From Candidatus Parcubacteria bacterium (GTDB lineage Bacteria; Patescibacteriota; Minisyncoccia; Phycocordibacterales; UBA2100), in assembly GCA_003599295.1 (NCBI GenBank), contig QZJK01000018.1, positions 1-43,596 on the forward strand: DNA of 43,596 nucleotides, in the 5' to 3' direction. The notes below the pieces were generated by a model, which ran no database searches, was not told the origin of the DNA, and was given only the letters and a program-made list of their open reading frames with translations. The first letter of the stretch is position 1, and the number at the start of each line of letters is the position of its first letter. This document shows positions 14-22,670 of this stretch, one piece after another. A program made the translations under genes and the position numbers.

Positions 14-1561
14 ATGTTGGCGGAGCCCATACGGGAACTCATCGGGAGGGTTGAAGCCGCGGAGGAAGAAAGCAGGAAATCGTCTTTTGGCGAGCAGATC
101 CTCGAGGTCAATAGGATAATCGCTAAAGCCGCCACCTTCTACGAGAAGGTGCGGTATTTAATTGATTACCGAGAAGAGCACACCATCCGCCGGAGCGCGA
201 TAGAGCGGATACTGAAGCGCCGGGTATTCATGGAACAGCAGACGCGGGTAGGAGCAACGCTTCTCCAGGAACTCGCCGACGGACAGTATTTGCAAAAAGA
301 AGAAGCGACCGAAGAACTTTCGAATGATATAGACAATATCGTCTGGAAATTCCTCGGGCTCATCGACGCGGTAAAAGTGAACGGCAATATCTCGCGCCGC
401 CTCATTAGTTTTGCCGCGACGGAAATAGACGCGCGCCTCTCTCCGCTTCAATGCACGGTGGATGAGAGCACCGCGGAGGCGTTCTACAAGACGATGAAAG
501 GCCACGTGTTCGTTTCCGGGGTCTCGGAAGAAGACGTCAACGTGCAGCTCTACTGCGCCGTATGGCGCTCGCTTCTTTCCGCGGACAACGAACGTCTGTC
601 GTACGCGCTCTGGCTCCTCTATGTTCCCGAATGGCGAAAGCCCGACCTCGATGTTGCGGGTATCGCGGCAAAACTCCAGAGCGTTATGGCACACATCCAA
701 TATGCCGTCGGAAACCAGCTTCAGTGGCAGCTTGCGCCGAAACTAAAGAATGAAAGCATTTACTTTCACATTATCCGCGATGTCATGCAGCAGCACGGCG
801 GCGGAGCGGAGCAGTTTTTGAATTCCTCTTCGGAGCTCGAACAGTACACAAGGGAATTCCTCGCGAAAAAATACGAGCGTGAGAACGAGCGCATCCGCTC
901 CAGCGGCATACGCGCGGTCATCTACCTCTTTTTGACGAAGATGGCCGTCGCCGTCGCCGTCGAAGTGCCGTATGAGTATTTTGTCCTCGGCCGGATACAC
1001 TACGTGCCGCTTTCAATAAACGTGCTTTTCCATCCGCTTCTCTTGTTCGCGTTCACCCGCAGAGTCGGTTCGCTCGATGAATCGAATACGGACGCCATCA
1101 TAAAAGGCGTGAATGCCATTCTCTACGAAGGGAAAGTGCGCACGATACGCGTACGGAATACGTATACCCGCCTTACGTTCGCATTCGGCGTCCTGTATTT
1201 GGCGCTTATCGTCTTCGTGTTCGGCGCACTCATCGGCATCCTCCAGCTTCTCAATTTCAACGCGGTCTCCATCATCCTGTTCCTGTTCTTCCTTGCGCTC
1301 GTATCGTACTTTGCGTTCCGCATCCGGCACCAAGCAAGGCGGTGGAAAGTCGTCGAGAACCGAGGTGCCTTGGCGCTCATCGCGAGCGTTTTGGCAATAC
1401 CCGTCGTGCGCGTCGGCCGCTGGCTCTCCCAAACCTTCTCTTCGATAAACGTATTCGTACTCATCATGGACTTCATCATCGAGACGCCGTTCAAGCGCCT
1501 TCTCAATTTCTCGAACCAATTTCTCGTTTATCTTCGCGAGAAGGCCGAAGAGATGCGATAA
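14..1561 (+). CDS. conserved hypothetical protein with C-terminal transmembrane segments
   Basis: 515-aa ORF; hydrophobic segments near the C-terminal third (LTFAFGVLYLALIVFVFGALIGIL, VSIILFLFFLALVSYFAF). Confidence 0.7.
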   Translation: MLAEPIRELIGRVEAAEEESRKSSFGEQILEVNRIIAKAATFYEKVRYLIDYREEHTIRRSAIERILKRRVFMEQQTRVGATLLQELADGQYLQKEEATEELSNDIDNIVWKFLGLIDAVKVNGNISRRLISFAATEIDARLSPLQCTVDESTAEAFYKTMKGHVFVSGVSEEDVNVQLYCAVWRSLLSADNERLSYALWLLYVPEWRKPDLDVAGIAAKLQSVMAHIQYAVGNQLQWQLAPKLKNESIYFHIIRDVMQQHGGGAEQFLNSSSELEQYTREFLAKKYERENERIRSSGIRAVIYLFLTKMAVAVAVEVPYEYFVLGRIHYVPLSINVLFHPLLLFAFTRRVGSLDESNTDAIIKGVNAILYEGKVRTIRVRNTYTRLTFAFGVLYLALIVFVFGALIGILQLLNFNAVSIILFLFFLALVSYFAFRIRHQARRWKVVENRGALALIASVLAIPVVRVGRWLSQTFSSINVFVLIMDFIIETPFKRLLNFSNQFLVYLREKAEEMR

Positions 1562-21074: not shown

Positions 21075-21476
21075 TCAGAATTTTAAACGGACAATCGCAA
21101 TCAATGCTGAAGGGTCTTTCATTGTGTGTGCAAATTCATTTCTGGAAGGAAGCGGCTCCATCTTGTCAGGGTCGTACACCCCAATAGCAGGATTTTTATA
21201 TGCAAGTGCGTACTGAAACGGATTATCAGCGTGTTCAAGGGTCAGATTATGCTCATCGGTACAATAAATAACACCGGGATCCTCGGCTGAATGCCAAGAT
21301 TTACCAATCCCATCTGCATCAAAACCACTGTATAAAAGCGACGCTCGGTAAAACGGCATTTTTCTCAGTGCTTTGATGAACAACTCTGTTTGAGATACTG
21401 TATCCCATCCTTTGGAAACGTCGGCAATATATATAGAAGGCCCCCGTTCAGCGTTCCGACCTTGTTCAAGTGTCAT
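21075..21476 (-). CDS. hypothetical protein
   Basis: ORF MTLEQGRNAERGPSIYIADVSKGWDTVSQ...; start placed after tRNA-Leu; no family recognised confidently. Confidence 0.5.
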   Translation of the reverse strand: MTLEQGRNAERGPSIYIADVSKGWDTVSQTELFIKALRKMPFYRASLLYSGFDADGIGKSWHSAEDPGVIYCTDEHNLTLEHADNPFQYALAYKNPAIGVYDPDKMEPLPSRNEFAHTMKDPSALIAIVRLKF

Positions 21477-21506
21477 AGGTTGTATCGTAGCGTAATTCAG
21501 GATTTG

Positions 21507-21588
21507 TGGGCGAGGAGGGACTCGAACCCTCACGGATTGCTCCACACGGTCCTAAGCCGTGCGCCTGTACCAATTCGGCTACTCGCCC
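21507..21588 (-). tRNA. tRNA-Leu (anticodon UAG)
   Basis: Acceptor GGGCGAG/CTCGCCC, long variable arm, anticodon loop CTTAGGA, T-arm GGTTCGAGTCC. Confidence 0.93.
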
Positions 21589-22223
21589 CTCAATAGCTTC
21601 ATCGCAATTTTCCGTTTTCGCGATAGAGCTGGCAAGGATTTCTCATAATACATCAACTGCAAAATACGGGTAGAGTCGGCTTTCCCGAAAGAGAGCATCT
21701 GTACGGACTTATTCTTTAGAGTATGAATATGCCCGCCCTTTATCATAAAAAGTCGCTTTACAACTCCTAGAATCCAGATTAAGAATGCTGGACTCGCAGA
21801 TGCTATCCGGAGGCGTACTTGAGGAAACTGACTCTCTGGATGCCAAAAGGTACCTAGGCTACCATCACCATCGAAGCACCCTCGCAGGAAATCTCTGAAA
21901 AATTCGTCTGGTACAGCTACCTCTTTAATCGTCTTTGATTTTTTTGGCGTAAGGCCGATGGAAATCAGGAATTCGTAGAAATTCATGTCTCCAAACTGGA
22001 GTACAAAATACTTTTTCTCTTTAGAATACCCACGCGCCTTACGGCCGATCTTGTTTTTAAGTCTGAGGATTTTCTTCGCCATCTTGATTATCTCGAGGTC
22101 TTTCGAAGTGATATTTATATGGCGACCGCTGGACGAGAGATTACCATCTGAAGCGATTAAACCAATCACATAAGCGAACTCGGGCGACCACACTGAATAA
22201 GTATTCGATTCTCTTTTCCTCAC
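21579..22223 (-). CDS. LAGLIDADG homing endonuclease
   Basis: Two dodecapeptide-like motifs, YVIGLIASDGNLS and FLRGCFDGDGSLG, both with acidic residue; GTG start 6 nt after TATAAT; stop codon lies inside the 5' part of tRNA-Leu(UAG). Confidence 0.85.
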   Translation of the reverse strand: MRKRESNTYSVWSPEFAYVIGLIASDGNLSSSGRHINITSKDLEIIKMAKKILRLKNKIGRKARGYSKEKKYFVLQFGDMNFYEFLISIGLTPKKSKTIKEVAVPDEFFRDFLRGCFDGDGSLGTFWHPESQFPQVRLRIASASPAFLIWILGVVKRLFMIKGGHIHTLKNKSVQMLSFGKADSTRILQLMYYEKSLPALSRKRKIAMKLLRGE

Positions 22224-22305
22224 CAAACAATTATACTACGCCATAAAGCGTATACCATTGGCACTCGCTAAAAAGAGGTTCTTTGGAAAGTAAAAGCGTT
22301 ATTTT

Positions 22306-22327
22306 GTCCGCCCAGTTGGATATGAAC
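22306..22327 (-). repeat. partial second copy of the tRNA-Lys 3' end
   Basis: GTCCGCCCAGTTGGATATGAAC matches 22456-22477 at 20/22 positions. Confidence 0.85.
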
Positions 22328-22330
22328 TAC

Positions 22331-22385
22331 TGGGAAACCCACGGTTTTCCCACTCCTTCCTCCGCGGAAAACCGGCAGGTTTTCC
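22331..22385 (-). repeat. double-hairpin repeat copy A
   Basis: TGGGAAACC-CAC-GGTTTTCCCA, linker CTCCTTCCTCCGC, GGAAAACC-GGCA-GGTTTTCC; reverse complement of the layout in copies C and D. Confidence 0.8.
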
Positions 22386-22456
22386 AACCCTTTCCTATTC
22401 GAATCCAAACGAAAAACACCCAGCATTTTTCTCTGGGCGTCCTTCGCTTCGTTCAG

Positions 22457-22529
22457 TCCGCCCAGTTGGATTCGAACCAACGACCGTTCGCTTAAGAGGC
22501 GACTGCTCTACCAACTGAGCTATGGGCGG
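22457..22529 (-). tRNA. tRNA-Lys (anticodon CUU)
   Basis: CCGCCCA acceptor, D-arm GCTCAGTTGGTAGAGC, anticodon loop CTCTTAA, T-arm GTTGGTTCGAATCCAAC. Confidence 0.93.
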
Positions 22530-22602
22530 GTTAGGAAGATTTTACACGAATCCGCGTTTTTTGGAACCTTAGCGTTTCGAGTGCCGTGCTTTTGCACGGC
22601 AT

Positions 22603-22670
22603 CACAAATCCCCGTGGAGGAAGGTTTGGGAAAACCGAGAGGTTTCCCAGACGGGGGTCGGGGATTTGTG
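22603..22670 (+). repeat. double-hairpin repeat copy B, modules in permuted order
   Basis: CACAAATCCCC...GGGGATTTGTG arms enclosing TGGAGGAAGG, TGGGAAAACC-GAGA-GGTTTCCCA and GGGGGTCGGGG. Confidence 0.75.

Follow-up and report, generated by a model that had tools for sequence, protein, structure and literature searches.

LAGLIDADG proteins encoded at the 5' ends of tRNA genes in Patescibacteria: candidate free-standing homing endonucleases targeting tRNA genes

The locus

The DNA studied here, hereafter the window, is a stretch of 43,596 nucleotides from the 0.72-Mb genome of a Candidatus Parcubacteria bacterium (assembly GCA_003599295.1, contig QZJK01000018.1), and it includes an open reading frame (ORF), present as a single copy in this genome, which codes for a LAGLIDADG protein and runs into the 5' end of a tRNA-Leu(UAG) gene. 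The features of the locus are as follows.

21506/21507..21588, minus strand: tRNA-Leu(UAG), intact and intronless (ARAGORN; Rfam RF00005, 59.9 bits)
21551..21571, minus strand: D-loop-to-anticodon stretch of this self tRNA, GGTACAGGCGCACGGCTTAGG, proposed recognition site, altered here
21565..21577, minus strand: swapped D-stem pair, Sprinzl 12-23, with C at 21577 and G at 21565 (G and C in ORF-less alleles)
21579..22223, minus strand: LAGLIDADG endonuclease ORF, 214 aa from GTG 22223, stop TAG at 21581-21579
22230..22235, minus strand: -10 box TATAAT, 6 nt 5' of the GTG
22236..22256, minus strand: putative target-mimic motif GGTATACGCTTTATGGCGTAG, 21 bp, abutting TATAAT on its upstream side; proposed operator
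22456..22529, minus strand: tRNA-Lys(CUU), the upstream neighbour, bounding a syntenic Lys-Leu(UAG) interval from which the ORF is absent at loci L075 and L074

Several details that the initial annotation had read from the DNA stand: the TATAAT box occupies 22235-22230, ahead of the GTG by the 6 nt claimed, and the ORF ends inside the tRNA, its stop codon corresponding to tRNA bases 8-10 because tRNA base 1 is at 21588. The overlap of the two genes comprises tRNA bases 1-10, ORF stop included. The tRNA is intact and intronless as described, being called by both ARAGORN and Rfam, and no group I intron was found within the window at Rfam thresholds. The ORF is not located inside an intron or intein and the tRNA downstream of it is intact, which is the arrangement of a free-standing gene. 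An alternative start codon, TTG at 22226, lies one codon 5' of the GTG and would give 215 aa. As TATAAT is only 6 nt from the GTG, a leaderless mRNA is predicted, and this gap is also the commonest among carriers of the gene (60 of 91 scored, in a count where the -10 score helped to choose the start codons).

Some further sequences near these genes are recorded here as separate observations. The last 15 bases of the tRNA-Lys (TCCAACTGGGCGGAC, 22456-22470) recur exactly at 22306-22320, about 135 bp downstream, and this exact repeat of the tRNA 3' end resembles an attachment-site duplication or an insertion scar. Intergenic repeats of the form GTGGAGGAAGG..GGGAAAACCG..GTTTCCCA are found near these tRNAs at about 22330-22400 and 22600-22660, and similar ones in the related locus of genome G009 (L075, about 420-480). 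Between the tRNA-Leu(UAG) and an aminotransferase gene there is another ORF (21075-21545, minus strand), without a Pfam match and missing in the syntenic alleles of G009 and G028.

Family membership and genomic position

The protein had been taken for a LAGLIDADG endonuclease with acidic residues in both motifs, and profile searches agree with this assignment. It matched Pfam LAGLIDADG_3 (PF14528) at 36.2 bits, above the cut-off of 22.5, the acidic residues D26 and D120 (one per motif, GTG-start numbering) are invariant in all 61 aligned homologs, and the profile of the family matches the solved homing endonucleases 2dch, I-AniI, I-DmoI and I-CreI. LAGLIDADG models alone matched the window protein in Pfam, with no match to a GIY-YIG domain, and the model of the WhiA LAGLIDADG domain scored 17.6 bits, under its cut-off of 23.2. 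In a search of a phage collection, all LAGLIDADG matches were distant (<30% identity). By its sequence, the window protein is a LAGLIDADG protein of the homing-endonuclease type.

Of 146 relatives searched with the protein, 55 had matches, and every match down to about E=1e-16 was fetched, resulting in 71 first-round loci. A same-strand tRNA is located at the ORF end in 69 of these, the other two being truncated or at a contig edge. The tRNAs at the first-round loci are Leu (UAG, GAG or CAG), Asp, Cys and one Lys, while Leu(UAA) and Leu(CAA) were never the tRNA at the ORF end among the 71. A phylum-wide sample of 379 genomes, 49 of them with matches, provided 30 further loci, two repeating earlier ones; here a tRNA started at the ORF end in all 28 loci with enough downstream sequence, and Phe was added to the tRNA types. 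As a control, a tRNA was directly downstream in only one of 80 more distant viral LAGLIDADG relatives. Since the arrangement recurs in every assessable homolog, it goes far beyond chance, and the direct fusion of ORF and tRNA, which the initial annotation had regarded as unusual, is within this family the rule. The stop codon is placed anywhere from about 37 nt before the tRNA to tens of nt inside it, and the reading frame is therefore not conserved, though the location is. In a tree of 63 proteins, five changes of tRNA isoacceptor account for the six states, which is the minimum possible; on this tree each isoacceptor marks one protein clade and the specificity tracks the protein, not the host. 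Several members may reside on different tRNAs within one genome (e.g. G001, G018 and G123).

Two other gene arrangements were seen alongside this family. On a 427-kb viral contig (L252, about 1970-2764), a LAGLIDADG ORF has its stop immediately 5' of a tRNA-Trp, and it is a possible phage member of the endonuclease-tRNA arrangement. At L099 (about 920-1495, minus strand), and also at L078 and L080, a different LAGLIDADG-type ORF lies a few nt past the 3' end of a tRNA-Leu(CAA); these ORFs form a second family, on the opposite side of the tRNA, and are probably read from the tRNA promoter.

The initial annotation had proposed looking among relatives for tRNA-Leu(UAG) loci free of the ORF, and the comparison gave 14 at which it is absent, several with the same neighbours as in the window; neither finding named in the annotation as refuting, an ORF at the same place in all relatives or no profile relationship to homing endonucleases, was thus obtained. 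In the ORF-less alleles of G009 and G028, these neighbours are the tRNA-Lys upstream and a class IV aminotransferase gene downstream. Similarly, at tRNA-Leu(GAG), the upstream gene end is common to the carrier G018 and the ORF-less G037 and G038. Broken copies, with stops or truncations, are found at L009, L015, L042, L047, L061 and L166. Together, the ORF-less syntenic alleles and the broken copies are as expected of a gene that is gained and lost. No conservation was found in the upstream sequences of the ORF-less alleles.

Promoter region

Of 100 ORF-less alleles, 39 have a strong -10 box no more than 13 nt from the tRNA, compared with none of 58 carriers; with the limit at 21 nt, the counts are 52 of 100 and 8 of 58. 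From these counts, the gene appears to separate the tRNA from its promoter, and transcription of the gene probably also yields the tRNA, in line with what the initial annotation had expected. A look for terminator-like sites in the interval gave none. That all carrier tRNAs are left promoterless would be too strong a statement, given the -10-like box that those eight carriers have in the wider search window.

The sequence GGTATACGCTTTATGGCGTAG, next to the -10 box of the window, reproduces two parts of tRNA-Leu(UAG), namely the D-loop (GGTATACGC) and the anticodon region (TTAG). The motif was assessed by scoring the two tRNA-derived blocks against shuffled sequence, with presence defined as p<=0.05. 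The window motif has 13 of 14 matches to these blocks (p=0.005, the floor of the test) and is one of only two loose matches genome-wide. Across the family, the motif is present in 63 of 88 carriers, most of them at the test floor, with a length of 20-23 bp, and about a quarter of the carriers, mostly distant ones, are without it. It always corresponds to the tRNA that follows the ORF, in direct orientation for Leu (37/37) and Asp (17/17) and inverted for Cys (9/9). In Asp and Cys, the blocks are spaced as in the tRNA, whereas the Leu motifs almost always have 1 bp more, as at 22236-22256. The motif ends at a median of 12-18 nt 5' of the start codon, over the -35 and spacer region, and usually abuts the -10 box. 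A less sensitive test by local alignment ranked the own tRNA type first in 37 of 69 cases, with ties among the Leu types and with Cys missed. Upstream of ORF-less tRNAs, the motif was found in 1 of 100 alleles; this is chance level, and the idea that the motif persists as a scar at ORF-less alleles was rejected. Given its place at the promoter, the motif has the look of a target-mimicking operator of the kind known from I-TevI.

Carrier tRNAs

Should the motif be a copy of the target, carriers would need some form of protection. The stretch that reads GGTACAGGCGCACGGCTTAGG in the window reads GGTATACGC or GGTACACGC in ORF-less tRNA-Leu(UAG) alleles. The D-stem is GCC..GGC in the window and in its nearest relative (L003) and GCG..CGC in most of the 14 ORF-less alleles, none of which has the swap. 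The swap turns GGTATACGC or GGTACACGC into GGTACAGGC with the stem kept, and no tRNA of the window's own genome has the target sequence. In some carriers (e.g. L004, L014, L028 and L049), the D-loop G18 is lost together with T55.

For tRNA-Asp, the target pattern was the motif consensus GGTTAG-N10-TGTCACG, written after the motifs were seen, and it is intact in 2 of 20 carriers against 28 of 39 ORF-less alleles (p=6e-6, host relatedness not fully controlled). Pooled over five isoacceptors, the difference in intactness reaches z=-4.7, with the same incomplete control for host relatedness. For tRNA-Leu(GAG), the target is intact in 3 of 37 carriers and 6 of 39 ORF-less alleles, which is not significant (p=0.27) because the ORF-less alleles are often altered too; one guess is that these alleles were altered during past carriage. 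The samples of Leu(UAG), Leu(CAG) and Cys are singly too small for the test, and three Leu(UAG) carriers (L005, L006 and L220) retain a target-like tRNA. Independent pairs on the tree gave 3:0 of 4 (p=0.25), too few pairs for a conclusion.

In eight tRNA-Asp carriers, a group I intron splits the tRNA between U35 and C36, inside the proposed target; exons were rebuilt for seven of the eight, and two are above the Rfam threshold. The D half and the spacing are kept in 6 of these 8 intron carriers against 2 of 20 intronless tRNA-Asp carriers (p=0.002).

Discussion

We consider it probable that these proteins are free-standing LAGLIDADG homing endonucleases targeting tRNA genes, with autorepression through a mimic of the target and with immune tRNAs that are either recoded or shielded by an intron. 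The gene belongs to a family found across Patescibacteria, with one tRNA isoacceptor per protein clade, and appears to lie between promoter and tRNA. In the proposed mechanism, the protein would recognise some 20-23 bp, from D-loop to anticodon, in tRNA genes of the same type without the endonuclease gene, and would cut such ORF-less genes between D-loop and anticodon. With the carrier copy as template, repair would then convert the tRNA, which would receive the altered 5' half, and copy the gene a few dozen bases upstream. The carrier itself would be spared by the changed D-arm of its own tRNA (in the window, the swapped D-stem pair) or, in some tRNA-Asp relatives, by the group I intron that interrupts the anticodon. 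The protein probably binds the target copy overlapping its own promoter and thereby represses itself, and RNase P probably excises the tRNA from the transcript of the gene. Essential tRNA genes would, seen in this way, look like both targets and vehicles of an endonuclease arms race.

That the D-loop-to-anticodon stretch is the recognised sequence is suggested by the promoter-side motif, the altered D-arms and the position of the intron. The initial annotation had offered the tRNA or its junction as the target; the first of these is likely, while the junction is not supported, the same three lines of evidence pointing elsewhere.

An alternative, which we regard as unlikely, is a domesticated DNA-binding regulator with a WhiA-like fate, binding the promoter motif and tuning the tRNA operon with neither cutting nor homing. 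Such a regulator would account for a motif that overlaps the promoter in most carriers and for a tRNA downstream of the motif promoter without a strong -10 box of its own, and the weak, sub-threshold similarity to the WhiA LAGLIDADG domain points the same way, but the WhiA model stays under its cut-off, both catalytic acidic residues are invariant, the family is patchy and has broken copies, and the altered D-arms as well as the exchange between intron and intact D-arm in tRNA-Asp would be left unexplained.

Integrases are known to replace tRNA halves at tRNA 3' ends, and the motif could by analogy be what is left of a former tRNA 5' half, displaced when the gene entered the tRNA together with a new 5' half. 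We find this somewhat less probable still: the motif does resemble the tRNA found at the opposite end of the ORF, but it is without the acceptor strand and bases 1-13, keeps just two blocks whose spacing and distance to the -10 box are constant, is inverted in all nine Cys carriers and in Leu exceeds the tRNA by 1 bp. Least probable of the three is a protein that cuts the junction of promoter and tRNA, the insertion itself destroying the site, which would fit an insertion always placed between promoter and tRNA but not the unconserved upstream sequences of ORF-less alleles, a clade specificity that follows the anticodon, or the mapping of motif and self-tRNA changes to the stretch from D-arm to anticodon. 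A maturase for a tRNA intron was dismissed, most carriers, the window included, having no intron.

Each of the known systems compared here shares one feature with the family for which we favour tRNA-directed homing. SegB of phages T4 and T6 is free-standing, lies beside tRNA genes, cuts tRNA-containing DNA and is associated with many tRNA isotypes (PMC13096335; PMC2988022, Table 1); it is likewise an endonuclease gene adjoining a tRNA, but it is of the GIY-YIG type, phage-borne and within a tRNA array, whereas the window family is LAGLIDADG, chromosomal and at tRNA base 1. The free-standing enzymes of T4 are described as cutting at sites hundreds or thousands of bp away from the gene that encodes them (PMC2988022), in contrast to a family with one clade per isoacceptor and only a few dozen bp between gene and proposed site. 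In I-TevI, a sequence similar to the homing site (15/20 nt) overlaps the endonuclease promoter, with binding and repression proven (PMC2988022), and the window gene similarly has a target-like sequence at its own promoter (22236-22256, abutting TATAAT). I-TevI is, however, a GIY-YIG enzyme within the td intron, whereas for the window family we infer binding and repression, and its promoter also seems to serve an essential tRNA. In collaborative or trans homing (F-CphI, MobE), a free-standing endonuclease gene lies beside a separate group I intron (PMC2988022, PMC6083498), to which the tRNA-Asp loci with an ORF-less group I intron interrupting the proposed target of the neighbouring endonuclease can be likened; the differences are a LAGLIDADG enzyme, an intron that interrupts the anticodon of a bacterial tRNA, and a window that is itself intronless. 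Lastly, rRNA introns of CPR bacteria carry LAGLIDADG endonucleases (I-ShaI and others), LAGLIDADG_3 proteins among them (PMC11270868); these share phylum and fold family with the window family but are inside rRNA insertions, and a text search of that paper found no mention of tRNA. In the literature searched, with subscription papers and preprints outside its scope, we found no description of chromosomal endonucleases dedicated to single tRNA isoacceptors, including a LAGLIDADG family in Patescibacteria.

Genes for tRNAs are among the most constrained sequences and therefore good homing targets. A more far-reaching claim, which we hold to be about evenly balanced, is that a phylum-wide family of tRNA-dedicated homing endonucleases drives the evolution of near-universal tRNA features. 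To escape cutting, carriers and former carriers would recode D-stem pairs or the D-loop G18 (with T55-to-G partners) or acquire a group I intron, and the essential tRNA would come under the autorepressed, leaderless promoter of the endonuclease, so that a selfish gene would both threaten and control it. If the preferred reading is true, the family would offer a series of natural enzymes that share one fold and cover at least five tRNA specificities, in which each member carries a sequence predicting its own target, useful for studying and engineering specificity. It would also offer a cause for the odd D-arms and anticodon introns of Patescibacteria tRNAs, and a bacterial example of an intron that could be mobilised by an endonuclease encoded outside it.

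Two more group I introns were observed in the loci collected. One, in G083 (L314), is in a tRNA-Asp at the same anticodon position, with no endonuclease gene found nearby, and the other is a second intron at L065 (758-962; Rfam 69.5 bits), located upstream of the endonuclease locus.
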